Source: Phycicoccus sp. M110.8
Lineage (GTDB): Bacteria > Actinomycetota > Actinomycetes > Actinomycetales > Dermatophilaceae
Assembly (NCBI RefSeq): GCF_032464895.1
Contig: NZ_JAWDIC010000001.1
Location: forward strand, 2,046,001 to 2,110,000
Direction of reading: 5' to 3'
Length of the DNA stretch: 64,000 bases
Shown here: in pieces, positions 226-39,281 of the stretch
Position numbering within the stretch: position 1 is the first letter of the stretch
Layout: each line of letters starts with the position of its first letter
Program-made: the position numbers and the translations under genes
Notes under the pieces: model-generated
What the model saw: the letters and a program-made list of their open reading frames with translations, nothing else
The model's database searches: none
What the model was told of the DNA's origin: nothing

Positions 226-2049
226 ATGTCCACGTCCAGCGTCTCCCGTCGCACGGTGGTGGCCGCAGCCGCCGCAGCAGCAGTCCTGGCCGCGGGAACG
301 GCCCCGGCGCTCGCGAGCGTGCGCTCGGGCCCACCGCCGACCAACCCCGATGCCCGTGAGGGCTGGGTCGCCTCGACGATCGCGCGGATGACCCTGCCCG
401 AGAAGGTCGGCCAGCTGTTCATCCAGAACGTCTACGGCAAGGACGCGACGACCCCGGACTCGCGCAACATCCCGCTGTACGGCGTCGCGACTCCGGCCGA
501 GGTCGTGCAGAAGTACCACCTCGGCGGTGTCATCTACTTCGCCTGGACCGACAGCGTGCAGAACCCGCCGCAGATCGCGGGCCTGTCCAACGGCCTGCAG
601 AAGGCCGCCCTGTCGCAGCAGTCGAAGGTCGACGTCCCCCTGCAGATCGCGACCGACCAGGAGCAGGGTGTCGTCACCCGCATCGGGCCACCGGCGACGC
701 AGTTCCCCGGCTCGATGGCGCTCGGCGCCGGGCGGTCCACCGCCGATGCCCGGACGGCTGCCGCCATCACCGGCGAGGAGCTGCGGGCAATGGGGGTCAA
801 CACCGACTTCGCGCCCGACGCGGACGTCAACGTCAACCCGCTCAACCCGGTCATCGGCACGCGCTCGTTCTCCTCGCGCCCCGACCTCGCCGCGCAGATG
901 GTCGGCGCCCAGGTCGACGGCTACCAGAAGGACGGCAACGTCTCCGCGACGGCCAAGCACTTCCCCGGCCACGGTGACACCGCGACCGACAGCCACGTGG
1001 CGTTCCCGATCATCACCCACACCCGCGAGCAGTGGGAGCAGATCGACGCGCCGCCGTTCAAGGCGGCGATCGCCAGGGGCATCGACATGATCATGACCGC
1101 CCACCTCAACGTGCCGGCGCTCGACGACTCCGGCGACCCGGCGACGCTGAGCAAGCCGATCCTCACCGGGGTGCTCCGGAACGAGCTCGGCTTCAAGGGC
1201 GTCATCGTCACCGACTCGCTGGGCATGCAGGGCGTGCGGGACAAGTACGGCGACTCCGAGGTCGCGGTGCGGGCACTCTCGGCAGGTGTCGACCAGCTGC
1301 TCATGAGCCCGTCGATGGACGAGGCGTACGGCGCCGTCATCGGCGCGGTGGAGAGCGGCCGCATCCCCATGGCCGACCTCGACGCCAAGGTGCGCCGCGT
1401 GCTCGAGCTCAAGTGGGACCGTGGCATCGTGGCCAAGCCCTACGTGGACCCGGCCGCCCTCGACTCGGTGGTCGGCACACCGGAGCACCTGGCCACGGCT
1501 GACGCCATCACCGACCGCACCACCACCCTGGTGAAGAACGACGACAAGACCCTGCCCCTCGCGGTGAGCGGGAAGAAGGTCCTCGTCACCGGCTACGGCG
1601 TGACGACGACCCAGACGCTCGGTGACGCGCTCAAGGCCCAGGGTGCCGCGACCACGGTCAAGCAGACCGGCTCGTCCCCGACGGACGCCCAGGTGGCTGC
1701 AGCCGTCGCCGCCGCGCAGGGCCAGGACGCCATCGTGGTCACGACGATGAAGGCCTGGGACACCTCCGTCACCGACCCGCGGGGCGGGCAGCAGAAGCTG
1801 GTCCAGCAGCTGCAGGCGACGGGCAAGCCGGTCGTCGTGGTGGCGACGCGCGACCCGTACGACATCGCCTACCTCCCGGGCACGAGCACGTACCTCGCCA
1901 CCTACTCCTACAGCCCGGTCGCGATCGAGTCCGTCGCCCGGGTCATCACCGGGGCGGTGAACCCGAGCGGCAAGCTGCCGGTCGACATCCCGGTGAAGGG
2001 CGACCCGGGGACGGTCCTGTACCCGTTCGGCCACGGCCTGTCCTACTGA
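226..2049 (+). CDS. nagZ: Exported beta-N-acetylglucosaminidase, GH3
   Basis: A 607-residue glycoside hydrolase family 3 enzyme, expected to remove terminal GlcNAc from peptidoglycan fragments outside the membrane. The N-terminus has twin arginines (SRRTVVAAAA) and an Ala-rich stretch ending near ALA-S, so Tat export is likely. The NagZ signature KHFPGHGDTATDSH spans residues 244-257; by comparison with Bacillus NagZ, Asp255 and His257 form the acid/base dyad. Asp330 in VTDSLGM is the expected nucleophile. A C-terminal GH3 domain follows from about residue 420. GGAGGA at 216-221 supports the ATG. It is the first gene of a murein-salvage run ending with murQ. Confidence 0.9.
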   Translation: MSTSSVSRRTVVAAAAAAAVLAAGTAPALASVRSGPPPTNPDAREGWVASTIARMTLPEKVGQLFIQNVYGKDATTPDSRNIPLYGVATPAEVVQKYHLGGVIYFAWTDSVQNPPQIAGLSNGLQKAALSQQSKVDVPLQIATDQEQGVVTRIGPPATQFPGSMALGAGRSTADARTAAAITGEELRAMGVNTDFAPDADVNVNPLNPVIGTRSFSSRPDLAAQMVGAQVDGYQKDGNVSATAKHFPGHGDTATDSHVAFPIITHTREQWEQIDAPPFKAAIARGIDMIMTAHLNVPALDDSGDPATLSKPILTGVLRNELGFKGVIVTDSLGMQGVRDKYGDSEVAVRALSAGVDQLLMSPSMDEAYGAVIGAVESGRIPMADLDAKVRRVLELKWDRGIVAKPYVDPAALDSVVGTPEHLATADAITDRTTTLVKNDDKTLPLAVSGKKVLVTGYGVTTTQTLGDALKAQGAATTVKQTGSSPTDAQVAAAVAAAQGQDAIVVTTMKAWDTSVTDPRGGQQKLVQQLQATGKPVVVVATRDPYDIAYLPGTSTYLATYSYSPVAIESVARVITGAVNPSGKLPVDIPVKGDPGTVLYPFGHGLSY

Positions 2050-2060
2050 GGTCGCCGGAG

Positions 2061-2957
2061 ATGCGCTGGACCGGGCTCGTCGCGTCCACGCTGGTCGCCG
2101 CGGTGGCCGCGGGTGTCTCAGGGGCACCCACGGCCACCGCGGCGGCACCGCCGCCGGGGTCCGAACCCCCGCCGGTGGTGGCCCGGTTCGCCACGTACAA
2201 CATCCACGCGGGCGCGGGGTCGGACAACGTCTACGACCTCGACCGCACGGCGGCCACCATCCGCGCGCTCGACGCCGACGTGGTCGGGATCGAGGAGGCC
2301 GACGTCCACTGGGGTGACCGCTCGCGCTTCGAGGACACCGTGGCCGAGCTCGGCGGCCGGCTCGGGATGCAGACCGGCTTCGCCCCGATCTACAGCCTCG
2401 ACCCGCTCCACGCCGGGGACCCCCGCCGCGAGTACGGCGTCGCCGTCCTGTCGCGGTACCCGCTCGTCGCCCTGGAGAACCACGACATCACCCGGCTCTC
2501 GACCCAGGACCCGAACCCGGTCCCTGCTCCGGCGCCCGGCTTCCTCGAGGCCACCGTGCAGGTCAGGGGCGCCCGGACGCACGTCTACGTCACCCACCTC
2601 GACTACCGCGGCGACCCGTCCGTGCGGACCGCCCAGGTCGCCGACACGCGGCGGATCATGGCGCAGGACCCGCCCGGCGCGAACCAGGTGCTCCTCGGCG
2701 ACTTCAACGCCGACGCCTCCGCGCCCGAGCTGGCACCCCTGTGGCAGGAGCTCGACGACGCCTGGGCGGTGGCGCGGACCCGCGTCGGCGAACCCGGCCT
2801 GACCTTCCCGGCCCTGCGCCCGGTGAAGCGGATCGACTTCGTCACCGTCCGGAAGGGCACGCCGGTGACCACGGCCGAGGTGCCCTCCGACCCCGCCCTG
2901 CTCGCCGCCAGCGACCACCGCCCGCTCGTCGCCACCATCGAGCTCCCCGTCCCCTGA
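2061..2957 (+). CDS. Secreted endonuclease/exonuclease/phosphatase family protein
   Basis: A 298-residue DNase I-fold protein with a hydrophobic signal peptide (residues 1 to about 28). Family metal and catalytic motifs are visible: TYNIHAG near the N-terminus, GIEEADVHW, LLGDFNAD (Asp214, Asn216) and the terminal SDHRP (Asp285-His286). The family cuts phosphodiester or phosphomonoester bonds in nucleic acids, lipids or sugar phosphates, and the substrate cannot be read from sequence. It starts 11 nt after nagZ and precedes namZ, so it is probably co-transcribed with murein-salvage enzymes. I know of no EEP protein in the Bacillus version of this locus. Confidence 0.8.
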   Translation: MRWTGLVASTLVAAVAAGVSGAPTATAAAPPPGSEPPPVVARFATYNIHAGAGSDNVYDLDRTAATIRALDADVVGIEEADVHWGDRSRFEDTVAELGGRLGMQTGFAPIYSLDPLHAGDPRREYGVAVLSRYPLVALENHDITRLSTQDPNPVPAPAPGFLEATVQVRGARTHVYVTHLDYRGDPSVRTAQVADTRRIMAQDPPGANQVLLGDFNADASAPELAPLWQELDDAWAVARTRVGEPGLTFPALRPVKRIDFVTVRKGTPVTTAEVPSDPALLAASDHRPLVATIELPVP

Positions 2958-3054
2958 CGACCCGGCCCCCGCCGACCGCCCCTGACCGACCGCACCGCCC
3001 CGCTCTGCCCGACCGCCCCACCTCGACGCCGCACCCTCGACGAAAGGCCTTCCG

Positions 3055-4371
3055 ATGACCCGCCTGAACCGCCGCCAGCTCCTCACCGCCGCGGGTGCGA
3101 GCGCCCTCGCCCTCCCCGTCGGCGCCTCGCTCGCCCAGGCAGCTCCGCCGCGCTCGAGCGCGCCGAACTACCCCGCCCGCCCGGTCACCCCCGGCGCGGA
3201 CCGTGAGGCGGCGAACGGCTGGCGCACCCTCGCCGGCCAGAAGGTCGGGGTCATCACCAACCCGACGGGCATCCTCACCAACCTGCGGACCATCGTCGAC
3301 GAGATGCACGAGGCTGGCACGGTCGACATCGTCGGCGTCTTCGGACCCGAGCACGGGTTCCGCGGCACGGCCCAGGCGGGCAGCTCGGAGGGCACCTCGA
3401 CCGACCCGCGCACGGGCCTCACCGTCTACGACGCCTACGGCGCCAACGCCTCGAAGATGGAGCAGCTGTTCCGCACGGCCGGCGTCGAGACCGTCGTCTT
3501 CGACATCCAGGACGCCGGCGCGCGGTTCTACACCTACATCTGGACCATGTACACGGCCATGCGCGCCGCCGTCGCGACCGGATCCCGGTTCGTCGTCCTC
3601 GACCGGCCCAACCCCACGGGCGGCACCGCGCGCGGCCCGATGATGACGACGGCATACACCTCGGGCGTGGGGGCCAAGGAGATCGTCCAGGCGCACGGCA
3701 TGACGGTGGGTGAGCTCGCGCGCTTCTTCGACGCGGAGTTCCTCCCCGCGGACGCCGGCGGCCGGCTCGCGCAGCTCGACGTGGTCGAGGTCAGCGGCTG
3801 GCGCCGCGACATGCCGTATGCCGCGACCGGCCTGCCGTGGGTGATGCCCAGCCCCAACATGCCGACGCCCGACACCGCGCTGGTCTACCCGGGCACGGGG
3901 ATGTTCGAGGGCACCAACATGTCCGAGGGCCGTGGCACGACGCGGCCGTTCGAGCTCATCGGCGCCCCCTACGTCGACTACAGGTGGGCCGAGCGGCTGG
4001 AGGCACGCGGCATACCGGGCGTCGCGTTCCGCGAGGCGTACTTCACCCCCACCTTCAGCAAGAACGCGAACAAGGTCTGCGGCGGGGTCCAGGTGCACAT
4101 CACCGACCCGTCGGCGATGGACCCCGTGCGGGTCGCGGTCGAGATGCTGGTGGCCGCCAAGGCCCTCTACGCCGACTTCGCCTGGCGCTACGACAGCTAC
4201 GACCCGGCGCGCCCGTACTGGATCGACAAGCTGAGCGGGTCGACGCGCCTGCGCGACCAGGTGACCGCGGGGGCGTCCGCGGACGAGGTGGTCGGCGCCT
4301 GGAAGGCCGAGCTCGCCGAGTTCGACCGGCGCCGCCAGCAGTACCTCATCTACCGCGGCCCGAACGCCTGA
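3055..4371 (+). CDS. namZ: Exo-beta-N-acetylmuramidase NamZ (DUF1343)
   Basis: A 438-residue protein of the DUF1343/GH171 family, whose Bacillus member NamZ removes terminal MurNAc from glycan chains. Twin arginines in NRRQLLTAAG and a cut site near AQA-A (about residue 29) suggest Tat export. Family motifs include GVITNPTGI, FGPEHGFRG (residues 96-104), DIQDAGARFYTYIWTM, LDRPNPTGG and PSPNMPTPDTALVYPGTGMF. With NagZ it would strip GlcNAc and MurNAc alternately from glycan ends. The ATG follows GAAAGG. A 98-nt gap separates it from the preceding gene and 19 nt from the next. Confidence 0.9.
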   Translation: MTRLNRRQLLTAAGASALALPVGASLAQAAPPRSSAPNYPARPVTPGADREAANGWRTLAGQKVGVITNPTGILTNLRTIVDEMHEAGTVDIVGVFGPEHGFRGTAQAGSSEGTSTDPRTGLTVYDAYGANASKMEQLFRTAGVETVVFDIQDAGARFYTYIWTMYTAMRAAVATGSRFVVLDRPNPTGGTARGPMMTTAYTSGVGAKEIVQAHGMTVGELARFFDAEFLPADAGGRLAQLDVVEVSGWRRDMPYAATGLPWVMPSPNMPTPDTALVYPGTGMFEGTNMSEGRGTTRPFELIGAPYVDYRWAERLEARGIPGVAFREAYFTPTFSKNANKVCGGVQVHITDPSAMDPVRVAVEMLVAAKALYADFAWRYDSYDPARPYWIDKLSGSTRLRDQVTAGASADEVVGAWKAELAEFDRRRQQYLIYRGPNA

Positions 4372-4390
4372 GCCGGCCGGGGGACCAGGG

Positions 4391-6124
4391 ATGCGCAACC
4401 GCCGACCCGTCCGCCGACAGGCGCTGGCGCTCGCCGCAGCCACCGCCGTGCTGGGAGGGCTGCTGACGACCACGCCTGCTGTTGCCGACGACTTCAGCAA
4501 GCCCTTTCGTGGGTACATGCCACCCAACACCGTGCTGAGCGACGCCTCGCCGCAGTCCGTGGGACTCGACCCGGCGCCGATCGCCACGGCGGTCCAGGAG
4601 ATCCGCGGGCACGAGGAGGCGCCGCCCGGCGGCCACCCCATGTATGCCGGGGCCGTGGGCCTCATGGGCCACGACGGGAAGGTCGTCGAGCGCGACGCCA
4701 GCGGCTGGGCGCTGCGGTGGAAGACCGACACCGAGGAGCTCCCGCGCGACCAGTGGGTGCCCATGGGCGAGGACACCGTCTTCGACCTGGCATCGGTGTC
4801 CAAGCTCTTCACCTCGATCGCCGTCGTCCAGCTCATAGACGAGGGGAAGGTCGACCTCGAGGCGCCCGTCGCGACGTACCTGCCCGAGTTCGCGGCGAAC
4901 GGCAAGGAGGCCGTGACCGTCAAGCAGCTGCTGACGCACACGTCCGGCTTCACGTCGTGGCTGCCGCTGTACAGCAGGTACCCGGACAAGGCGTCGCGGA
5001 TCAGGGCGGTCATGGACCAGCCGCTGACCAACCCGCCGGGCAGCACGTACCTCTACAGCGACCTCAACATGATCACCCTCGGCGTCATGGTCGAGCGGCT
5101 GCGGGGCGAGTCGCTCGACAAGGTCGTCGCCGAGCGGATCACAGGTCCGCTGGGCATGGCGGACACGGGCTACAACCCGACCGACCGGACGCGCACCGCG
5201 GCGACGGAGTACCAGCGCGTCCCGGCCCGCGGCATGGTCTGGGGCGAGGTGCACGACGAGAACGCCTGGTCGCTGGGCGGCGTCGCCGGTCATGCCGGCG
5301 TGTTCTCGACGGTCGACGACTTGGCCGTGCTGTCCCAGGCGCTGCTCAACGGAGGCAGCTACCGCGGCCACCGCATCCTGACCCGCAAGGGCGTCGACGC
5401 CCTGACGACCAACGTGAACCAGGCCTTCCCGGGTGATGCGCACGGCCTCGGTTTCGAGCTGGACCAGCGCTGGTACATGGACTCGCTGTCCGGGCCGCGC
5501 ACGGCCGGGCACACCGGGTACACCGGCACCTCGATCGTCATCGACTTCGCGTCGCACTCCTTCGCGATCCTGCTGACCAACCGCGTGCACCCGTCCCGCA
5601 GCTGGGGCAGCAACAACGTCGCCCGCCGCGAGTGGGCGGGCGGCCTCGGCCAGGCCATGGCCGTCCGGCCGAAGCACGGTGACACGGCGTGGTTCTCGGG
5701 GGCGAAGGACGCCACGACGACGACCCTCGCGACGCCCGCGCTCGACGTCCCCACGTCCGGTGCGCGGCTGTCGTTCGACCTTTTCCTCGACACCGAGGAG
5801 ACCGACCGGCTGGTGCTGGAGAAGTCGGTCGACGGCGGGCAGACGTGGACGCGGCAGCCCTTCACCGTCCGCGACCGCGGCGACACGACGTCCAGCGACG
5901 GCACGGTGTCGGGAGCCGGGGAGCGCCACTGGGCGCAGGCCCGTGCGGACCTCGCGGCCGGGACGCAGGTGCTGCGGTGGCGGTACACGACCGACGGCTC
6001 GTACCTGGGCCGGGGCGCGTACGTCGACGACGTCCTCGTGCAGGCCGACGGCGGCGCGCTCCTCGACGGGGAGAAGACCCCGGGCGCCTTCGTCGCCGAC
6101 GGGTGGACCCTGCAGTCACGGTGA
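4391..6124 (+). CDS. AmiE-like serine hydrolase with C-terminal beta-sandwich domain
   Basis: A 577-residue class C beta-lactamase-fold enzyme with a signal peptide (residues 1 to about 32). The catalytic set is intact: SVSK (Ser135, Lys138), YSD (Tyr222) and HTG (His374). In Bacillus the equivalent gene of the murQ-murR-amiE-nagZ-namZ locus is AmiE, an N-acetylmuramoyl-L-alanine amidase, and that role is inferred here. Residues from about 430 form an added domain (SARLSFDLFLDTEETDRL, VDGGQTWTRQPF) resembling the beta-sandwich of immune-inhibitor-A-type anchors. It could also be a D-Ala-D-Ala peptidase or an esterase. Confidence 0.78.
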   Translation: MRNRRPVRRQALALAAATAVLGGLLTTTPAVADDFSKPFRGYMPPNTVLSDASPQSVGLDPAPIATAVQEIRGHEEAPPGGHPMYAGAVGLMGHDGKVVERDASGWALRWKTDTEELPRDQWVPMGEDTVFDLASVSKLFTSIAVVQLIDEGKVDLEAPVATYLPEFAANGKEAVTVKQLLTHTSGFTSWLPLYSRYPDKASRIRAVMDQPLTNPPGSTYLYSDLNMITLGVMVERLRGESLDKVVAERITGPLGMADTGYNPTDRTRTAATEYQRVPARGMVWGEVHDENAWSLGGVAGHAGVFSTVDDLAVLSQALLNGGSYRGHRILTRKGVDALTTNVNQAFPGDAHGLGFELDQRWYMDSLSGPRTAGHTGYTGTSIVIDFASHSFAILLTNRVHPSRSWGSNNVARREWAGGLGQAMAVRPKHGDTAWFSGAKDATTTTLATPALDVPTSGARLSFDLFLDTEETDRLVLEKSVDGGQTWTRQPFTVRDRGDTTSSDGTVSGAGERHWAQARADLAAGTQVLRWRYTTDGSYLGRGAYVDDVLVQADGGALLDGEKTPGAFVADGWTLQSR

Positions 6125-8498: not shown

Positions 8499-9323
8499 AT
8501 GACCGAGGGGGAGGTCGCGGGGAGCCGGGTCGTCGAGCACGCGCCCGACGCGGTCCCGAGGGCACTGGGGGTGAGCCGTCCCAACGGCCTGCGCGTCCTG
8601 GGCCTGGCCGTCCTGGCCCTGTGGGCGACCTGGGCGGTCCTCACGTGGCTGTCGTCACCCCGGTTCGTCACCGACGAGCAGCTCCACGCCGACCTGCAGG
8701 CGGGCCGCATCCAGACCTGGCGGCTGGCGACCGACCTGCACCCGGAACGGGACTGGCCGCCGGCCGGCGCCGGATCCTGGAGCTTCGGGACCCTGGCGCA
8801 GCGCGAGACCGACGGCCTCCCCGCCGAGTGGGACCGCCGGACGGTCGACGCGGTCGTCTACTGGGTCGACGGCGACGTCGCCCCAGTGCGCTTCGCCGGT
8901 GCACTGCCGGGGGGCGATCCGCTCACCCTGATGTCCGAGCTCCGGCAGGCCGGTGCTCCCCAGTCGGCCCCGGCCACCTTCCGCCCACCGGACCAGGACC
9001 GCGGTGCCCCGTGGGGCCTGGCTGCCTTCGCCCTCGGCCTGCTCGTCGTCGTCGGCAACACCACCCCCACCCGCGGCACCCGCTGGTTCTGGTTTTGGCT
9101 CCAGTGGGCCCCGCTGGGCCTCGGCACGGTGGCGTATGCCGTGGTCGAGCTGGCGCTGCCGGGCCGCCCCTGGCGAGTCCTGGGTGTGACGGGCGACGTG
9201 CGGCAACGCCGCCTGCGCGGCTGGGAGGCCTTCCTCGTGCTGGCCCTCCTCACCGTCGTGGTGGTGCTCGCCACGTCCGGCCTCCGGCACGCCGCCGGGC
9301 CGCTGGTCGTGCCGGGTCGCTGA
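8499..9323 (+). CDS. Hypothetical membrane protein
   Basis: A 274-residue protein of no family I recognise. Hydrophobic segments lie at about residues 27-48, 172-190, 205-225 and 245-263. A soluble stretch of about 115 residues between the first two contains WRLATDLHPERDW and AVVYWVDGDVAPV. The ATG at 8499 follows CAGACT (8487-8492) by 6 nt, consistent with a leaderless transcript; earlier in-frame starts would overlap the tRNA. It stands alone between tRNA-Ser and the SRP RNA. Confidence 0.65.
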   Translation: MTEGEVAGSRVVEHAPDAVPRALGVSRPNGLRVLGLAVLALWATWAVLTWLSSPRFVTDEQLHADLQAGRIQTWRLATDLHPERDWPPAGAGSWSFGTLAQRETDGLPAEWDRRTVDAVVYWVDGDVAPVRFAGALPGGDPLTLMSELRQAGAPQSAPATFRPPDQDRGAPWGLAAFALGLLVVVGNTTPTRGTRWFWFWLQWAPLGLGTVAYAVVELALPGRPWRVLGVTGDVRQRRLRGWEAFLVLALLTVVVVLATSGLRHAAGPLVVPGR

Positions 9324-31548: not shown

Positions 31549-31706
31549 GCCTGTGACTCGTGGGCGACGCAATCCGTTGCGGCGCAATGGTCTTGGGGGA
31601 AATGCGCAGATAGCGGGCAAAAAGGCCTGACGAGCGCGCGGTTGACCGGAGTCGGGCGTCGTTGACCCCTGTCGGGCCGGTTCGGTCGCGAGTAGCGTGA
31701 AGTGCG
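31549..31706 (+). promoter_or_regulatory. Promoter region of the unknown module
   Basis: This 158-bp gap is relatively AT-rich, with ACGCAATCCGTTGCG (small hairpin) near 31565-31580. TAGCGT (31693-31698) is a -10 box 8 nt before a GTG at 31707, so transcription into the next five genes probably starts here. Confidence 0.45.
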
Positions 31707-31760
31707 GTGGTTCCGCCAGGGCCGCCGACCGCACGACCGGGGCAAGCGGGCCGGGGGCAC

Positions 31761-32999
31761 ATGCGCACCTACCCATATGCGTTCCACGTCGCCCTCGACG
31801 GCAACGGGCTGAACGGGCTCGAGGGCCGAGCCGGCGTGTGCCTGTTCCACTACGACCCCGTGACCGGCGACCACGCGTACAAGGTCACCTACTTCGACGG
31901 CGCCTCCGGGGGCCACGCGCCGAGCGTCGACCCCAGCCGCCGGATCGGGTTCCTGGGCAACACCGGCCAGCACCTGCTCTTCTACGACCTCGCCACGCTC
32001 GAGGAGGCAGACCGGGTCTCCACCCTGCGGTTCGAGGTGCCGGACACGACGATCAAGGGCAGCACCCACCTCGTCTGGCTCGACGACACGCAGTTCGTCA
32101 CCTCGATCGGCGAGCACCTGTGGACGTTCGACGTCAACCGGCTCACCAAGGCCGAGCAGGTCGCGCCACACCAGCTCAAGATCCCGCACGCCATGAAGCG
32201 CACGGCCTCCGGCCGCTACGTCGTCTACGGCGGGATGGACCACCCGACCCGCGGTGAGGCCAAGGAGGTCGGGATCCTGGACACCGTCACCGGCGAGGTC
32301 CGGCGCGTGCCGCTGCCGACCACCTGCTGGCACGTCATGTGCCACCCGGTGCTCGACGTCTTCTACGCGATCTCGTTCCGGGTGCACCCCGCCGACCGCA
32401 GCGACTACGAGCACTGGGGGATGGCGTGGCTGCGGCAGTACGCCTTCGAGATCGACGCCGAGGACGGCCGCGTCGTGCGACACTGGGCCGCCGACCGCGA
32501 CCTGCCGGCCCACGTCAACTCCGACGTCACCATCTCCGACTCCGAGCTGATCTTCTGCACCGGCGGCAGCCACACCGTCGTCCTCGTCGACCTGCTCACG
32601 CTGAGCCACCACCGCCTCATCGACGAGCACCCGGGCGCGCTGGAGAGCCTGGCGCTGACGCGCCAGAGCGCGTCGACGGTCGCCGAGGCGTTCATGCGCG
32701 GCAACGTCTTCGGCAACAGCCACCTGTATGCCGAGTCGCTGCGGGTGAGCCGTGGCGCGTTCGTCGACGGCATCTACGCGTGCCAGCTGTCGGCCGACCA
32801 GACGCTGCTGTTCACCGCCAACCGCGGGCAGAACCACATCACCGTCTACGACTACCCCTCGCTGGAGCTGCGCGACCGCGTCGTCATGCCGGAGCTGCAG
32901 GACCTCGACCCGAGGGTGGGCGCGTTCGGCGACCCGCGCCTCGGGTTCCACCACTCCTACCTCGTCAGCCCACCCGCGCCCACCGCAGGAGAGCCCTGA
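31761..32999 (+). CDS. Beta-propeller-like protein, unknown function
   Basis: A 412-residue protein that I cannot assign. Repeated beta-strand blocks with an aromatic/Asp pattern (HLLFYDLATLEEADRV, EHLWTFDVNRLTKAEQV, EVGILDTVTGEVRRV, HTVVLVDLLTLSHHRLI, HITVYDYPSLELRDRV) suggest a six- or seven-bladed propeller. His residues are frequent, including PHAM, CWHVMCH and FHHSY, so a metal site is possible. No signal peptide is present. A leaderless start at GTG 31707 would add 18 residues. The next gene overlaps its stop as ATGA-type (TGATG). Confidence 0.7.
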   Translation: MRTYPYAFHVALDGNGLNGLEGRAGVCLFHYDPVTGDHAYKVTYFDGASGGHAPSVDPSRRIGFLGNTGQHLLFYDLATLEEADRVSTLRFEVPDTTIKGSTHLVWLDDTQFVTSIGEHLWTFDVNRLTKAEQVAPHQLKIPHAMKRTASGRYVVYGGMDHPTRGEAKEVGILDTVTGEVRRVPLPTTCWHVMCHPVLDVFYAISFRVHPADRSDYEHWGMAWLRQYAFEIDAEDGRVVRHWAADRDLPAHVNSDVTISDSELIFCTGGSHTVVLVDLLTLSHHRLIDEHPGALESLALTRQSASTVAEAFMRGNVFGNSHLYAESLRVSRGAFVDGIYACQLSADQTLLFTANRGQNHITVYDYPSLELRDRVVMPELQDLDPRVGAFGDPRLGFHHSYLVSPPAPTAGEP

Positions 33000-33457
33000 T
33001 GGCCAACTACAGCATCGACACCACCGTGTACGGGGGCAGCACCGTCAGCTCCGACGTGAACGCCGACGTGACCTCCACCCTCACCGGGCTCGACGACATG
33101 AAGCTCACCCTGGCCGGCGGGACGACCAACACCAACAACGGCACCAACACGGTGCACTCCGACGCGACGATCACCCTCGAGCCGGTGACGACCACCTCGA
33201 CGGTGAACACCACCTCGAACCTCGAGAGCCGGTCGAGCGTGGACACGACGTCGTCGGTGGACCTCAAGCCGGTGGCCGTCGACACGTGCGTCCGCCTGGA
33301 GCTGGGGCCGCCGCCCGCCACCGAGGTGTGCACACCGTACGAGCAGACGTGGGGCTGGTCGGTCCTGGGCCTGGAGCTGTTCTCGCTGACCGTCCGGGGG
33401 CGTGCCACCGCGCACATCCGCCCCGAGCACCACGGCCCCGTCGTGATCGACCTGTGA
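32999..33457 (+). CDS. Thr/Ser/Asn-rich protein, unknown function
   Basis: A 152-residue protein without a signal peptide. Residues 5-95 are very rich in Thr, Ser, Asn and Val with alternating polar and non-polar positions (STVNTTSNLESRSSVDTTSS), which favours extended beta structure. The last 55 residues are more ordinary (CVRLELGPPPATEVCTPYEQ), with two Cys that could pair. Its start overlaps the preceding stop codon (TGATG). No family is recognised; a structural or coat-like subunit would fit, as inference only. Confidence 0.65.
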   Translation: MANYSIDTTVYGGSTVSSDVNADVTSTLTGLDDMKLTLAGGTTNTNNGTNTVHSDATITLEPVTTTSTVNTTSNLESRSSVDTTSSVDLKPVAVDTCVRLELGPPPATEVCTPYEQTWGWSVLGLELFSLTVRGRATAHIRPEHHGPVVIDL

Positions 33458-33464
33458 GCGCGCG

Positions 33465-34154
33465 ATGCCGACCAGCCGCCGCAAGCCCACCCCTCGCAAG
33501 GACGCCCCGCGCGCCGACCGCGCCAGGACGGCATCGGTCGCCGACGAGATCGTCCTCACCGGCCCACCCGGCCGGCTGCACGCCACGGTCTCGGTCGAGA
33601 ACGCCGTCTCCGAGCGGGTGTCGGTGCGCGGAGCAGTCCTCCACCGGTCCGGGCAGGAGCCGGTGCCCGGCCTGGCGACGGCCCTGATCTCGCCGGGGAC
33701 GACCGCCTCGGTGCCCGTGTCGGTCAGCCTCTCCCGGACGACGCCGCCCGGTGAGCTCGAGGCCGAGCTGGAGGTCGGCGGAACCCGCCGGCCGGTGCGC
33801 GTCCTGGTCGAGCCGGAGCTGGACCTCCACCTGAGCCCCTCCCGCGTGCTGGCCGTCCCGGGACGCCAGCGCGTCCCCCTCACCCTCGTCAACCACGGCA
33901 ACGTCGACATCCCCCTGGCCGCCCTGACCCGGGCGCGGACCGACGACGGCGGCCCCGACCCGGGACCCGACGTCTCGCTCACGGTGCTCGACCCGACCAC
34001 CGTCGAGCCCGGCGCCATCGTGAGCGTCGCGGCGGAGCTCACCGTGCCCGACGAGCTCGACCCCACCCGGCGACACGTCGCCCGCATCCCCGTCGGGACC
34101 GCCGACCTCGAGGTCGTCGTCCTGCCCCGCACCACATCGGAGGAGCTGACATGA
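33465..34154 (+). CDS. Ig-like beta-sandwich protein, unknown function
   Basis: A 229-residue protein. After a basic N-terminus (residues 1-25), two beta-sandwich units are likely. One starts at RLHATVSVENAVSERVSV and ends in RPVRVLVEP. The other starts at RQRVPLTLVNHGNVDIPL and ends in ADLEVVVLP. The pattern resembles NEW3 or CARDB-type domains common in exported proteins, but no signal peptide exists. It lies 7 nt after the preceding gene and overlaps the next by ATGA. Confidence 0.68.
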   Translation: MPTSRRKPTPRKDAPRADRARTASVADEIVLTGPPGRLHATVSVENAVSERVSVRGAVLHRSGQEPVPGLATALISPGTTASVPVSVSLSRTTPPGELEAELEVGGTRRPVRVLVEPELDLHLSPSRVLAVPGRQRVPLTLVNHGNVDIPLAALTRARTDDGGPDPGPDVSLTVLDPTTVEPGAIVSVAAELTVPDELDPTRRHVARIPVGTADLEVVVLPRTTSEELT

Positions 34155-35188
34155 GCACCACGGCACCGGAGTACCTCACGACGCTGCGCACCGGCCTCGC
34201 CGAGGCCGTGCAGCAGTGGGCGGACCAGTCGACCACCGCCTGGGAGCAGTGGGCGCGGGCGTGGCAGCCGGTCGCGGACGCGGGCGCCGACGCCCTCGGT
34301 ATGCCGCGGGTGCAGCCCGGCTCGCCGCCCCGCGTCGTGGGACGGGGGGACACCGCGGGGCGCGATTACCGGCCCGGCAGCCACCCTGGCCACGAGCCCC
34401 ACCACCACGGCTGGGAGGAGCGCGCCGGGCACCACCACGAGGGCTGCGCGTGCGGGGAGTGCCGCGGCCACGAGCACGCACGCCACCACGAGGGCTGCGG
34501 GTGCGGCGACGGCCGCGGCCACGAGCACCACGGCCACGAGCACCACGGGCACGAGCGCCCGGACGACCATCAGCTCGGCTGCGGGTGCGGGGACCACGGC
34601 CATGGCCACGGGTGCGCCTGCGGGGGACGCGAGCACGTCCACGGCTGCTGTGCCGGGCCCTGCGACTGCTGCGTCCCGGAGGCGGACGTGGTCGTGCGGG
34701 CGCGCGCGGGCGAGGTCCGCGTCGTGCCGTTCCGCCTGCACAACCCGTGGCGCCGGGAGCGCGAGGTCACCCTCGAGGTCGGGCCGTGGCACGCCTGCGG
34801 AGGCGACCAGCTCGAGGTCCGTGCGCGCCTCGAGGACACGAGCCTCACGCTCGCCCCGTGCGAGGACCGCGTCGTGCGGCTGCTCGTCACCGCGACGGGT
34901 TCGAAGCAGGCCGGCGACACCGCGACCGAGCAAGCGGGGAAGCCGGGACAGGCTGCTCCAGCCGAGGACGAGCGGGCGCGCACCACCGCCGACGTGGCGG
35001 AGGAGGCGGTGCGGCAGGTGTCCGTCCTGCGGGGCGTGGACGTGGACTCGTGCTCCACGGCGTACGCCGACGTGCGGTTCGAGGGCTGCGGCCGTCCCCA
35101 GCGGGTGGCGCTCGTGGTGCTGCCGGCCGGGTGCGACCCGGTCGACGTGGGGTGCGGCTGCGGGTGCTGCGACGGGGGGCACCGGTGA
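34151..35188 (+). CDS. Helical protein with His/Cys-rich centre and Ig-like C-terminus
   Basis: A 345-residue protein. Residues 5-50 form an amphipathic helix rich in Trp and Gln (TGLAEAVQQWADQSTTAWEQ), resembling phasin-type helices. Residues 75-175 are dominated by His, Cys and Gly, with repeats such as HHEGCACGECRGHEH and HHEGCGCGDGRGHEH, strongly suggesting metal binding. A beta-sandwich follows (VRVVPFRLHNPWRREREVTL), then a CGCGCC tail. It overlaps both neighbours as ATGA/GTGA. No known family was recognised; metallochaperone, metal store and scaffold roles are all possible. Confidence 0.68.
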   Translation: MSTTAPEYLTTLRTGLAEAVQQWADQSTTAWEQWARAWQPVADAGADALGMPRVQPGSPPRVVGRGDTAGRDYRPGSHPGHEPHHHGWEERAGHHHEGCACGECRGHEHARHHEGCGCGDGRGHEHHGHEHHGHERPDDHQLGCGCGDHGHGHGCACGGREHVHGCCAGPCDCCVPEADVVVRARAGEVRVVPFRLHNPWRREREVTLEVGPWHACGGDQLEVRARLEDTSLTLAPCEDRVVRLLVTATGSKQAGDTATEQAGKPGQAAPAEDERARTTADVAEEAVRQVSVLRGVDVDSCSTAYADVRFEGCGRPQRVALVVLPAGCDPVDVGCGCGCCDGGHR

Positions 35189-35883
35189 GCGAGCGCACGA
35201 CCGGCACCGACGAGACGCTCTCGCGGATCACTGAGCTCGCCAGGCAGGCGCTGCAGGCGCAGGCGACGCTGGCGAAGCAGTCGCTGGAGCTCGGCCGGGC
35301 CACCCTGAGCGGCGACGTCGACCGGTCGAGCGCGGGCCGCGCGTACCTGGACGCCGTCAGCCGCGAGGGTGCGCGCTACTGGCGCGAGGTCGGGGCGCTC
35401 GGGCTCGACTACGCCAGCGAGCTGCTCGCCCTCGGCACGCGCAGCGCGGCGCGCGTGGTGAGCGAGGCCTCGGCAGCCGGCTCGCGAGGCAGGGACCACA
35501 GGGCGACCAGGGGATCGTCCGCGGGCGGTCCGCCTCCGGCCGAGGGTGCGCCTGACGGCACCCGCCGCTCGGCGGTGGTCCTGCGCGGAGTGCTCGGCCA
35601 GACCGCACAGGCCACCGTGACCGTCGTCAACCGGCACACCCGCGCCCGCCGGGTGGAGCTCACCCCGAGCGACCTGCGTGACACCGGGGGCGCCCTCGTG
35701 GCAGCCCGGCTCCGGGTCGACCCCGAGCACGTCACGGTGCCCCCCGGTGGGGACCACCCGGTGCGACTCGAGGTCGACCTCGATGCGGCCGACGCGGCGG
35801 TCGGCGACCGCTACGAGGGGACGGTCGAGGTCAGCGGGGGCGACGAGGCCACGCTGGAGGTGACCGTCGAGGTCGTGGCCTGA
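35185..35883 (+). CDS. Helical plus Ig-like protein, unknown function
   Basis: A 232-residue protein with the same plan as the preceding gene product but without the His/Cys centre. Residues 10-95 are amphipathic helices (ARQALQAQATLAKQSLELGR, REVGALGLDYASELLALG), phasin-like in character. A Gly/Pro linker and a beta-sandwich (TAQATVTVVNRHTRARRVEL to the end) follow. It starts by GTGA overlap. Its last 53 bp overlap the 3' end of the convergent epimerase gene. Confidence 0.66.
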   Translation: MSERTTGTDETLSRITELARQALQAQATLAKQSLELGRATLSGDVDRSSAGRAYLDAVSREGARYWREVGALGLDYASELLALGTRSAARVVSEASAAGSRGRDHRATRGSSAGGPPPAEGAPDGTRRSAVVLRGVLGQTAQATVTVVNRHTRARRVELTPSDLRDTGGALVAARLRVDPEHVTVPPGGDHPVRLEVDLDAADAAVGDRYEGTVEVSGGDEATLEVTVEVVA

Positions 35884-37027
35884 CCGAACCGGCGGCACCC
35901 GGTGCCGGACCCCTCGCGGCCGACCCGGCGGCGCCGGGCTCCGGGGCGTCCGCCCCCTCCGGGGCGTCGCCGAGGGGCGCGGGCACCAGCGCCCGGGCGG
36001 ACCGCACGTCCGGGTGCAGCCGCAGTCCCTCGCGCGCCCAGCGCGGCAGGTCGCGGCTCACGGCCAGCCAGGCCAGCGAGGCGGCGACGGCCTCGCGCGC
36101 CGGCCGCGCGGCATACCCGAGCTCGTGCGCCTTGGCGCTGGAGTACCAGTAGTGGCGCCCCACGGTGCTCGCCTCGTCGCGGGTCGACAGCGGCTGCTGC
36201 TCGGTGAGGCTGGCCCACCACTCGGTGACGGCGGCGATGCCCCACGCGCTCGCGGCGGGGAGCTCGGCGAAGGGCCCGGGCAGCCCGGCCAGCTCGGAGA
36301 CGAGGGTGTGCAGCGTCCGCCAGGTGACGTCCTCACCGCCGAGCAGGTAGCGCTCGCCGGGCTCGCCCCGCTCGAGCAGGACGACGTGGCCGGCGCCCAC
36401 GTCGCGGGCGTCGACGACGTTGCAGCCGCCGGGGAAGGTGCTGCGGGTCGGGTCGAGCAGGTAGCGCAGGACGATGGCGTTGCTGGGGGCCAGGCGGGTG
36501 AACGGGCCGCCGAGGACGACGGTGGGCAGGGCGAGGACGACCGGTATGCCGTGCACCCGTCCGGCCGCGAGGGCCGCCTCCTCCTGCGCCACCTTGCTCG
36601 CGTAGTAGGCGGGAGCCGGCTCGTCCCCGAGCCGGTCGTCCTCGGTGCGGGCGACGGGGAGCAGGCTCGAGCCGCGCGTCACGCTCGAGCTCGTCACCAC
36701 CACCCGGTCCAGCCCCGCGTCTGCAGCGGCGTGCACCACGGAGGTGGTGCCCTCGACGTTGACCCGTCCCACCTCCTGCGCCCGCGCTGCCCCGAACGCG
36801 TAGACGGCGGCGCAGTGCACCACGGCGTCACAGCCGGCGAACGCCCGGCGCAGGGCGTCGGGATCCGTGAGCGGGGCGACGCGTCGCGCGACCGTGGCAC
36901 CGCCGGTCACGGGCACCGGGGGTCCCGGGTCGCGTGTCACGGCCACGACCTCGTGCCCGTGCGCGATCGCTGCCGCCGCCATCTGCGTGCCGACCATCCC
37001 GGTGGCCCCGGTGACCGCCACCCTCAT
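35831..37027 (-). CDS. NAD-dependent epimerase/dehydratase family protein
   Basis: A 398-residue short-chain dehydrogenase of the extended type. The Rossmann motif is VTGATGMVG at residues 4-12, and the catalytic Tyr-x-x-x-Lys is YYASK near residue 142. It resembles dihydroflavonol-reductase/3-beta-HSD-like members, so a sterol, terpenoid or sugar ketone could be the substrate. The last 60 residues are a Pro/Ala/Arg-rich tail, probably read-through coding without function. It overlaps the upstream DUF362-like gene by ATGA and converges on the unknown module. Confidence 0.82.
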   Translation of the reverse strand: MRVAVTGATGMVGTQMAAAAIAHGHEVVAVTRDPGPPVPVTGGATVARRVAPLTDPDALRRAFAGCDAVVHCAAVYAFGAARAQEVGRVNVEGTTSVVHAAADAGLDRVVVTSSSVTRGSSLLPVARTEDDRLGDEPAPAYYASKVAQEEAALAAGRVHGIPVVLALPTVVLGGPFTRLAPSNAIVLRYLLDPTRSTFPGGCNVVDARDVGAGHVVLLERGEPGERYLLGGEDVTWRTLHTLVSELAGLPGPFAELPAASAWGIAAVTEWWASLTEQQPLSTRDEASTVGRHYWYSSAKAHELGYAARPAREAVAASLAWLAVSRDLPRWAREGLRLHPDVRSARALVPAPLGDAPEGADAPEPGAAGSAARGPAPGAAGSVRPRPRRSPPAWPRRPR

Positions 37028-38994
37028 CGCGGTCCCCGGACGTGGGTGAAGCCGTGGTCGTCGACGACCGGCCCCTGTGCCGGGTCGCCGGCGGTCGGCT
37101 CGCGGGAGCCGGTGCGGTCGGCGACCCACTCCCGCGCGGCGGAGAGGAGCAGCTCCACCGACCGGGTGAGCAGGGGCTCGCCCGGGTCGGGTGGCGGTCG
37201 GCCGATGCGGAACTCCCGCCCCTCGAAGCAGGCCTCGAGGTTGTCGAAGGTCGTGGTGAAGAACCGGCGGTAGGCCTCCTCCAGCAGGGGGGTGCGCACC
37301 TCGGGCCACAGGTCGAGGTCCACCCCGGCCCACGCCGGTGGCAGGGAGAAGAGCTGGCGACCGCGGACGGTGACCCGGGTCCCGCGGCCGCTGCGCCGGA
37401 AGCTGAGCAGCCCGTCGTCGTAGGTGGCAGACCCGTTGGGGCTCAACACGGTCCGCCAGGTCAGGCGGTGCTCGTCCGCGCGCCGCTCCACGAGCTCGAT
37501 CTTGCCGACGTCGATCGCGCGGCCGCCCCAGGCCGCCACCCAGTTCGGCTGGGGGAGGTAGAGGTTGCGCTCGGCCTGCCGCGTCGCGCCGGGGTCGGGG
37601 CTGCCCGGCACGGCGACCCGTCGTCCGCCCAGGTAGTCGGCCATCAGGCTGATCCCGGCCGCCACGTCGACCCGCGCGACCCACGCGTCGAAGTCCGCCG
37701 GCACCTCGCGGGACACCTCGAAGACCGTCGCGCCGTCGACGAGCCGCCACCGCATCCCGTCGGCGTTGGGCCCGGTGCCGTCGAGCAGCGCCTCGAACGG
37801 TGCGAGGAACGCCGGCAACCCGTCGTACGCCTCGCCCGGCCAGTCCGCGGGGTCGAACCCGAGCGGGACCTCGCGCCGGTCGACCGCCTCCTTGTCCGCG
37901 GAGACCGCCCAGGCCCGGGCCGAGCCCGCGACGCCGTGGGCGAGGGTGAGGAGCGACTCCAGGGCCAGCTGCCCGGCGGGGTCGTCCGCCGCCTCGACCA
38001 GTGGGGTGACCAGGCTGCGCAGGGCCGACAGCACCGGGTCGGCCGGCTCGCCGCCCTCGTCGTGGCCGCCGACGGCCGCCCTGAGCACCCGCTCGAGCCT
38101 CGGTTCGGCGGCGAGCGCCGCAGCGGCCGCCCGCAGGCGCGGGTGCGGACCCAGGGGCCGCGACGGGGCGGGCACCCGGCCCTCCAGCCGACCGGGTGAG
38201 GCCCCGAGCCGCTCCACGGCGCGGCCCACGAGGCGCGAGGCGCCGCGGTCCTGACCGAGGAGCGCGGCGACGCAGGTGTCCGCCAGGACCGCGTCCGTGG
38301 CGACCACGAGGACGCCGCCGGCGGCCCCGGAGTCCGCGGGTGCAGGCAACCGGGCCCCGTCGACGCCGCCCGCCGGCGCCAGCGCGTCGACGACCACCAG
38401 CGTGGGCGGCAGGCGGGCCAGAAGGTCGACGGCGACGTCCGCCGGCTCGGCCCCGGCCACCTCGGGGGCCGCTCCCAGCAGGGTCTCCAGCGACCCGGCG
38501 AACCCGTCGACGAGGTCGGTGACGGCACGGCCGACCACCACCCGCGTGCGGGCTGCTGCCCACACGGCGCTGCACAGCTGCCCGGAGAGCACGGCCGTGT
38601 CGGGCACCGGCGCCGTCACGAGGTCGTCGGCCAGGTCGACGACGGCATACGACCGTCCCTCGTCGGTGCGCCCGGTGAGGCCGGCGTCCACCGCGAGCAG
38701 GGTGGCGGAGCGGTGTCCCCGGTCGTGGTCGCCGACGGTGAGCCGTACACCGACGGACACGTCGTCGCAACCGCGCTGGTGGAGCAGGTCGACGACGGTG
38801 TGGACGACCGCGGCGCTCGCGGGGGTGGGCGGGCTGACACGGGTGAGGACGACGGCGGGGCCGGCGGGCTCGACCCCGAGGCGGTCGCACGCGGCGGCCA
38901 GGCCCGCGACGCCTCCACCGCTGACCACGGTGCAGGCAGGCGGTTCCCGGCTCACGACACCGTCCGGTGCCACGCGTCCATGAAAGCAGCGCAT
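37024..38994 (-). CDS. DUF362-like domain fused to SRPBCC-like domain
   Basis: A 656-residue protein. Residues 20-240 resemble DUF362 (VVLTRVSPPTPASAAVVHTV, TRVVVGRAVTDLVDGFAGSL, PPTLVVVDALAPAGGVDGAR), although the usual ferredoxin-like Cys cluster is not visible. A helical middle region follows. Residues 420-580 look like a START/SRPBCC fold (VFEVSREVPADFDAWVARV, EHRLTWRTVLSPNGSATYDD). The combination suggests binding or reduction of a hydrophobic ligand, but this is inference. It is coupled to the epimerase gene by ATGA and diverges from the DUF2630 gene. Confidence 0.66.
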   Translation of the reverse strand: MRCFHGRVAPDGVVSREPPACTVVSGGGVAGLAAACDRLGVEPAGPAVVLTRVSPPTPASAAVVHTVVDLLHQRGCDDVSVGVRLTVGDHDRGHRSATLLAVDAGLTGRTDEGRSYAVVDLADDLVTAPVPDTAVLSGQLCSAVWAAARTRVVVGRAVTDLVDGFAGSLETLLGAAPEVAGAEPADVAVDLLARLPPTLVVVDALAPAGGVDGARLPAPADSGAAGGVLVVATDAVLADTCVAALLGQDRGASRLVGRAVERLGASPGRLEGRVPAPSRPLGPHPRLRAAAAALAAEPRLERVLRAAVGGHDEGGEPADPVLSALRSLVTPLVEAADDPAGQLALESLLTLAHGVAGSARAWAVSADKEAVDRREVPLGFDPADWPGEAYDGLPAFLAPFEALLDGTGPNADGMRWRLVDGATVFEVSREVPADFDAWVARVDVAAGISLMADYLGGRRVAVPGSPDPGATRQAERNLYLPQPNWVAAWGGRAIDVGKIELVERRADEHRLTWRTVLSPNGSATYDDGLLSFRRSGRGTRVTVRGRQLFSLPPAWAGVDLDLWPEVRTPLLEEAYRRFFTTTFDNLEACFEGREFRIGRPPPDPGEPLLTRSVELLLSAAREWVADRTGSREPTAGDPAQGPVVDDHGFTHVRGPR

Positions 38995-39032
38995 CCCTCG
39001 CCCGCGGAAGGCCTCGGTGCCATAGTGGGCGC

Positions 39033-39281
39033 GTGGCCGAGGACATCGACATCCAGCAGCGCATCAAGGGACTCATCGACGAGGAGCACTCGCTGCGGGC
39101 GCAGCTCGGCGACGGCGACATCACCGTCGAGGAGGAGAACTCGCGGCTGCGGGCCCTCGAGGTCGAGCTCGACCAGTGCTGGGACCTGCTGCGCCAGCGC
39201 CGCGCCCGCCGGGAGTTCGGCGAGGACCCGGGTGGTGCGCAGGTGCGTGACGCGGCGACGGTGGAGAACTACCGGGGCTGA
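39033..39281 (+). CDS. DUF2630 family protein
   Basis: An 82-residue acidic coiled-coil protein matching DUF2630: IQQRIKGLIDEEHSLRAQL at the start, then LEVELDQCWDLLRQRRARRE. These small proteins are widespread in actinobacteria and have no assigned function. The GTG at 39033 is 6 nt after CATAGT, consistent with a leaderless message. Confidence 0.85.
   Translation: MAEDIDIQQRIKGLIDEEHSLRAQLGDGDITVEEENSRLRALEVELDQCWDLLRQRRARREFGEDPGGAQVRDAATVENYRG

Follow-up and report, generated by a model that had tools for sequence, protein, structure and literature searches.

Organization of the seven-gene block

The stretch of DNA analysed here, referred to as the window, consists of 64,000 nucleotides (nt) of Phycicoccus sp. 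M110.8 (assembly GCF_032464895.1, contig NZ_JAWDIC010000001.1, positions 2,046,001 to 2,110,000 of the forward strand) and has a G+C content of 73.5%. Between an acyl-CoA synthetase-like gene ending at 31548 and a small gene starting at 39033, it holds a block of seven genes, numbered here 1 to 7 and together called the module, which is present or absent as one unit in close relatives. On sequence grounds these are real genes and not chance reading frames, because homologues exist for all seven. Five genes on the plus strand, with overlaps or gaps of at most 7 nt, face a coupled pair on the minus strand, and this order, the strands and the couplings, as described in an initial annotation made from the sequence, were confirmed. 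The features are as follows, in window coordinates, with lengths in amino acids (aa) and immunoglobulin-like domains abbreviated as Ig-like.

31549..39032, no strand: block present or absent as one piece
31693..31698, plus: -10-like element TAGCGT, 68 nt 5′ of the gene 1 ATG, recurring in other upstream regions
31761..32999, plus: gene 1, predicted seven-bladed beta-propeller, 412 aa, invariant His in six blades
32999..33457, plus: gene 2, 152 aa, Thr/Ser-rich, with short repeats and conservation in its C-terminal part
33465..34154, plus: gene 3, predicted Ig-like (NEW3-type) protein, 229 aa
34151..35188, plus: gene 4, short helical N-terminus, variable His/Cys-rich middle and Cys-framed Ig-like domain, 345 aa
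34373..34672, plus: His/Cys-rich middle of gene 4, differing in length between species and holding a 51-nt tandem repeat
35185..35883, plus: gene 5, GTG start, phasin-like helical domain (about aa 1-95) and Ig-like domain (aa 129-232)
35831..37027, minus: gene 6, extended short-chain dehydrogenase (epimerase/3beta-hydroxysteroid dehydrogenase type), 398 aa
37024..38994, minus: gene 7, 656 aa, fusion of a LarA-like/DUF362 domain with a START-type domain
38074..38922, minus: LarA-like (DUF362) domain of gene 7, aa 25-307
37213..37848, minus: START/SRPBCC lipid-binding type domain of gene 7, aa 383-594

Genes 1 and 2 are coupled through TGATG, with the gene 2 ATG at 32999, and a gap of 7 nt separates genes 2 and 3. 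The couplings that follow are ATGA between genes 3 and 4 (34151), GTGA between genes 4 and 5 (35185) and, on the minus strand, ATGA between genes 7 and 6 (37024-37027). Among the 11 full modules discussed below, the 4-nt overlap of genes 6 and 7 is kept in all, and the 4-nt overlap of genes 3 and 4 and the 1-nt overlap of genes 1 and 2 in 10 each (the exceptions being loci L030 and L024), while the 4-nt overlap of genes 4 and 5 occurs in the window only. Between the convergent genes 5 and 6 the overlap is 53 nt (35831-35883), and 50-62 nt in 10 of the 11, not in L030; the tail of gene 6 beyond about aa 352, which overlaps the end of gene 5, lies outside the tblastn matches.

Gene 1 had previously been placed from a GTG at 31707. 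Since conservation starts at MRxYPYAFH and the stretch from that GTG lies outside the conserved part, its start is most likely the ATG at 31761. Of the promoter predicted at 31693, the -10-like part stood: in 10 of 12 upstream regions the pattern TA(G/C)(C/T)(G/C)TG recurs 58-70 nt 5′ of gene 1; it is missing from those of Kribbella L027 and Mycobacterium L029, and is found in 3.4% of shuffled 120-nt regions. A well spaced -35 element was not seen.

Distribution and gene content of the module

Gene 1 was found in 15 of 149 genomes of the family, and a gene 7 profile in 16, namely the same 15 carriers and one further genome, G033. Gene 7 thus accompanies gene 1 in 15/15 carriers, compared with 1/134 of the other genomes (Fisher p 1e-19, relatedness ignored). 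Co-occurrence is therefore strong, and its absence, which the initial annotation had named as refuting evidence, was not observed. Based on locus-by-locus gene content, split contigs L081 and L082 included, genes 1, 5, 6 and 7 are present in all 15 family carriers, and genes 2-4 too in 13 of them. In G033 (L080, G033:C66), gene 7 is split in two and gene 6 continues into unrelated sequence (1327-4378), a remnant that probably represents a decayed module; next comes a YVTN-propeller-like frame whose N-terminus is hydrophobic, and the contig holds no gene 1 match. In a phylum sample, gene 1 occurs in 4 of 396 genomes including the source genome (3 of 395 others); among 66 genomes from the class to which the distant carriers belong it occurs in two, both already found. 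Carriers include some soil actinobacteria.

Within the genus, six of nine sampled genomes carry the module, and all three module-free genomes (G115, G131 and G032) show an empty site, with matches to the flanking genes lying 86, 47 and 14 nt apart, respectively. In these close relatives the seven genes therefore behave as a cassette, present or absent as a single block, and the empty sites may reflect either gain or loss of the block, being compatible with both. The module genes of L016, L017, L018, L030 and L044 also have the flanking genes of the window nearby. None of the other 11 loci searched does, so more distant carriers hold the module at other sites.

Loci around gene 1 were collected by tblastn with the seven window proteins, and reading frames were placed by script (n = 23). 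Eleven loci (window, L016, L017, L018, L019, L021, L022, L024, L030, L042 and L044) contain the complete set in the same order. Two loci of distant actinobacterial genomes (L035 and L036; gene 1 identity 58 and 56%) hold all seven rearranged; here gene 3 in L035 and gene 5 in L036 were assigned from their position and low similarity (20 and 21% identity; gene 5 profile E 3e-4). Four loci have genes 1, 5, 6 and 7 only: L023, where gene 7 is cut by the contig end, L038, L027 of Kribbella and L029 of Mycobacterium. Propeller, phasin-like protein, dehydrogenase and DUF362-START protein form the core of the module, because the minimal modules of Kribbella and Mycobacterium keep these, gene 5 being represented there by its helical part alone. 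In another four loci (L020, L025, L026 and L028) the module breaks off where the contig ends or close to it, and the remaining two, L034 and L041, are considered with the interpretation below.

The alignments used for conservation hold 17 of the 23 loci for gene 1, 11 of 17 for gene 7, 14 of 18 for gene 2, 12 of 16 and L035 for gene 3, and 14 of 18 together with L027 and L036 for gene 5, the last three loci named having been added by position. For gene 4, 12 of 16 were aligned; L030 and L041 were dropped, and L022 and L026 were not used.

Gene 5 and its relation to phasins

Phasin_2 (PF09361) matches three of the 16 gene 5 members at E up to 0.1. In L029 (E 0.0011) and L027 (E 0.0022) it matches over most of the model, with the best match spanning positions 10-95 of 100. 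The short proteins of these two loci align to a profile of the gene 5 N-terminus derived from Intrasporangiaceae-type modules (E about 1e-18). As Phasin_2 stays below its curated cut-off, gene 5 is not classed as a phasin, and its phasin-like character is weakly supported. Amphipathic phasin-like helices had been attributed to the N-termini of both products 4 and 5; a phasin-like N-terminus common to both was not found, the profile of the gene 5 N-terminus giving no match in gene 4. In L035 and L036, gene 5 ends in a Cys-bearing tail resembling a zinc ribbon (by eye). L036 also encodes an extra 115-aa protein between genes 5 and 7 (5069-5416), perhaps a separate phasin-like protein, with no significant family match.

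A phasin-like coat protein, reduced to a short form in L027 and L029, is what the module shares with polyhydroxyalkanoate (PHA) granules, or carbonosomes, and the weak Phasin_2 matches could be explained by a PHA granule system with unusual phasins. Unlike such granules, the module also encodes a propeller and Ig-like, Cys-rich and START-type proteins, and the synthase domain PhaC_N (PF07167) is found neither in the source genome nor in 12 of the 15 carriers (3/15 carriers compared with 29/134 others, p 1.0). We set this explanation aside as very improbable on the basis of PhaC_N, a model that may miss class III synthases, for which no search was made.

Genes 2 to 4

HHalign relates gene 3 to gene 5 (probability 87%, E 4e-6) and gene 4 to gene 5 (85%, E 6e-6), and gives no direct match between genes 3 and 4. 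The proposal that products 3, 4 and 5 have Ig-like domains in common was thus upheld for both pairs involving gene 5, not for the third. Searched against the source genome, the gene 5 profile finds only gene 5 itself (E 1e-95) and gene 4 (1.3e-3). Pfam matches to the Ig-like part of gene 5 are fn3_5 in 8/16 members and FixG_C in 6/16, the window's own protein reaching 2.7e-4 and 8.4e-4, short of the cut-offs, and NPCBM_assoc matches 5 of 13 gene 3 members (best 2.3e-8), not including the protein of the window. Gene 3 also matched urease beta (0.017) and methane monooxygenase B (likewise 0.017), which reflects an Ig-type fold in common at most. In gene 2, Ser and Thr make up 28% of the residues; its best PDB sequence match, AbpX (E 0.16), was taken as chance.

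The gene 4 protein of the window contains 23 Cys and 28 His, and 12 Cys are invariant in the 12 aligned sequences, arranged in the clusters C-x4-C-x-CC, an inner one, and C-x-C-x-CC; such Cys/His clusters suggest a role in metal handling. A match to DUF5719 (0.0057) in just one of 12 members led to no family assignment. The 51-nt tandem repeat (34432-34533, 84% alike) lies in the His/Cys-rich part, where length varies greatly by species. Gene 4 matches fall into two frames in L030 (12411-13204) and into three pieces in different frames in L041 (4818-5391), so that either the genes are disrupted or the sequence of the Cys/His-rich part contains errors.

The propeller of gene 1

The predicted model of gene 1 is a seven-bladed propeller spanning residues 1-406 of 412, and identity to the window protein is 56-92% over the aligned loci. 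In blades 1-5 the inner strand opens with an invariant His (H52, H103, H143, H191 and H251), blade 7 has an invariant HH (H397, H398), and blade 6 has Tyr339 in place of His. These seven His occupy equivalent strand positions, as judged from sequence and predicted secondary structure rather than from coordinates, and suggest a ring that is a candidate metal or substrate site. Nothing significant was found in Pfam (best 0.011, PepSY, in 2/17 members), NCBIfam (best 0.22) or PDB chains (best 0.54), and the structural matches are generic propellers only, so no family was assigned.

Nitrous oxide reductase with its CuZ site, as passages of PMC11573801 describe it, likewise has seven blades and seven His from six blades, with one HH blade and one blade devoid of His. 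In those passages the His-less blade comes two after the HH blade, compared with six after (one before) in gene 1. Gene 1 further lacks the second, C-terminal cupredoxin (CuA) domain and the N-terminal hydrophobic stretch, and identity is 9%.

Together, the clusters of gene 4 and the His ring could belong to a metal-handling particle, in which gene 4 would store or deliver a soft metal, the ring of gene 1 would use it, and genes 7 and 6 would be accessory. We regard this as unlikely. The initial annotation had named a hydrophobic or metal-bound compound as the one handled, and the hydrophobic alternative is supported by the START-type model of gene 7 and an extra SRPBCC gene in L035; a metal role is suggested by the invariant Cys of gene 4 and the His positions of gene 1.

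The enzyme pair of genes 6 and 7

The pairing of an epimerase with a DUF362/SRPBCC protein, as originally described, is borne out by both genes. Gene 6 has TGxxGxxG and YxxxK in 17/17 sequences and matches Epimerase (PF01370, E 6.5e-27). Its best NCBIfam matches are the extended short-chain dehydrogenases HpnA (hopanoid-associated), SdmB (sterol demethylation) and OleD, with which it shares these motifs, yet it stays under all three cut-offs, at 206.4 bits for the HpnA equivalog (cut-off 367.65), 101 for SdmB (600) and 75 for OleD (580). DUF362 is found in 10 of 11 gene 7 members and Polyketide_cyc2 in three of 11 (best 6.2e-4). The predicted model shows a LarA-like N-terminal fold and a START/SRPBCC helix-grip fold in the second domain, whose top Foldseek match is WhiE-ORFVI (E 1.1e-6), with a START/aromatase-cyclase-like fold. 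The helix-grip fold is shared with START/SRPBCC lipid-transfer proteins, from which gene 7 differs by the fusion to a DUF362 domain.

The N-terminal fold and the DUF362 matches place gene 7 near the LarA superfamily, and a nickel-pincer (LarA-type) pathway with gene 7 as a 2-hydroxy acid racemase could be envisaged. LarA binds its cofactor via Lys and His, but residues 25-307 of gene 7 contain no invariant or near-invariant His or Lys (11 sequences, not aligned residue by residue to LarA). LarC (PF01969) is found in 0/15 carriers compared with 28/134 others (p 0.075; 28/149 genomes overall), and the START-type fusion is a further difference. On residues and LarC, this pathway was set aside as barely credible.

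A dehydrogenase next to a START/aromatase-cyclase-like fold could also belong to a biosynthetic cluster that makes a small hydrophobic molecule, working as a soluble multi-enzyme complex on an Ig-like/repeat scaffold, without an inclusion body. The patchy, cassette-like distribution of the module would agree with this, since such a distribution is typical of biosynthetic clusters. The block, however, holds no synthase, ligase or transferase gene, four of its seven genes appear structural rather than catalytic, and the phasin-like protein is retained even in the smallest modules. We consider such a cluster a possibility to be kept in view, though a rather doubtful one; it and the metal-handling particle are the main rivals of the explanation given below.

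A possible coated lipid body

Our preferred explanation, offered tentatively and with less than an even chance of being correct, is that the module specifies a coated cytoplasmic body of a lipid other than PHA, with enzymes acting on a hydrophobic compound that may resemble isoprenoids or sterols. Handling of a small hydrophobic molecule is suggested by the START-type domain, by the dehydrogenase and, in L035, by an additional SRPBCC protein. The gene for the latter, of SRPBCC/DUF2505 type (DUF2505 8e-6), lies between genes 1 and 6 of L035 (9763-10320), and L036 has a similar sequence at the corresponding position (about 8671-9213). A surface, most simply of lipid or polymer, is suggested because the phasin-like domain is retained in the smallest modules. 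The substrate class is drawn, weakly, by analogy with START ligands and with the families closest to gene 6. N-terminal hydrophobicity of products 1-5 is low (best 15-residue mean 0.56, on the Kyte-Doolittle scale only and not from a signal-peptide program), in line with the absence of signal peptides stated earlier.

In such a body, the phasin-like helices of gene 5 would lie on the surface of the lipid, an outer coat would be formed by the repeat protein of gene 2 and the Ig-like domains of genes 3, 4 and 5, and gene 4 would hold metal via its Cys/His clusters. The propeller of gene 1 could be the central catalyst or receptor, with metal or substrate held by its His ring. The START-type domain of gene 7 would carry the hydrophobic ligand, on which gene 6 would oxidise, reduce or epimerise a hydroxyl or keto group. 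The component folds are known, and the whole would work like a phasin-coated inclusion, although it is not classed as one. The more specific proposal of a new organelle-like particle, encoded by a seven-gene mobile cassette and combining a phasin/Ig-coated lipid body, a central His-ring metalloenzyme from a new propeller family and a START substrate ferry, is improbable in our estimate.

Several observations weigh against the coated lipid body. The particle itself is a prediction from the genes. The gene 5 of the window is not among the Phasin_2 matches listed, and the scores in L029 and L027, 19.5 and 18.6 bits, lie under the curated cut-off of 24.9. The most amphipathic N-terminal stretch of gene 5 is no outlier among its own shuffles (p 0.11; for gene 4, p 0.008), and His is not significantly enriched at the invariant positions of gene 1 (12/24, hypergeometric p 0.064). 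L034 and L041 have genes 1-5 with other sequence or genes where genes 6 and 7 would sit. In L041, VOC-type and transporter-type frames (by eye) follow gene 5, and genes 7 and 6 of the same genome lie on contig L081; beside genes 1-5 of L034 both are absent, the rest of that genome being outside the search. Finally, the wax ester synthase/diacylglycerol acyltransferase (WS/DGAT) gene, present in 15/15 carriers, is near universal in the family (132/149; link p 0.22).

Triacylglycerol or wax ester bodies would be like the proposed body in this WS/DGAT gene, and in that the phasin PhaP1, when expressed in triacylglycerol-accumulating bacteria, associates with triacylglycerol inclusions, according to passages of PMC6273058. 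Triacylglycerol bodies are possible for the module, not specially supported, because non-carriers too mostly have WS/DGAT (117/134), which gives no specific link. We know of no triacylglycerol/wax ester lipid body with this gene set. More generally, as in the initial annotation, no described system with this set was recognised: none was found in the open-licence PMC text and the family libraries searched, the hidden Markov model matches assigning gene 6 to common dehydrogenases and gene 7 to DUF362. The observation made in that annotation was therefore confirmed, and its interpretation, an intracellular assembly or coated granule with the enzyme pair making or modifying the compound, is partly supported.

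If the coated lipid body is real, actinobacteria would own a protein-coated body devoted to a lipid other than PHA and equipped with its own redox and lipid-carrying enzymes. The strongly conserved propeller, which has no significant sequence match in Pfam, NCBIfam or PDB, would then gain a working place. Genomes of the same genus with and without the module are natural controls.

Additional observations

An origin in anti-phage defence or in phages was also considered and rejected: PADLOC matches none of the seven proteins at E up to 0.01, PHROGs matches only the common dehydrogenase gene 6, and no relatives of gene 1 were found in the phages, plasmids and viral contigs searched. Upstream of gene 1, the direct repeat GTTGACC-N3-GTCGGGC occurs twice with 20-nt spacing (31641-31677), and by eye is absent from the relatives compared. 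In L020, genes 1-3 are followed by a TnpB-like frame (by eye) and a masked stretch (3166-4821), and genes 4-7 lie in order on contig L082; this reflects either an insertion or a repeat at which the assembly broke. In L028, gene 1 (68% identity) and gene 5 lie, perhaps through misbinning or transfer, on a contig labelled as an Acidobacteria metagenome-assembled genome.

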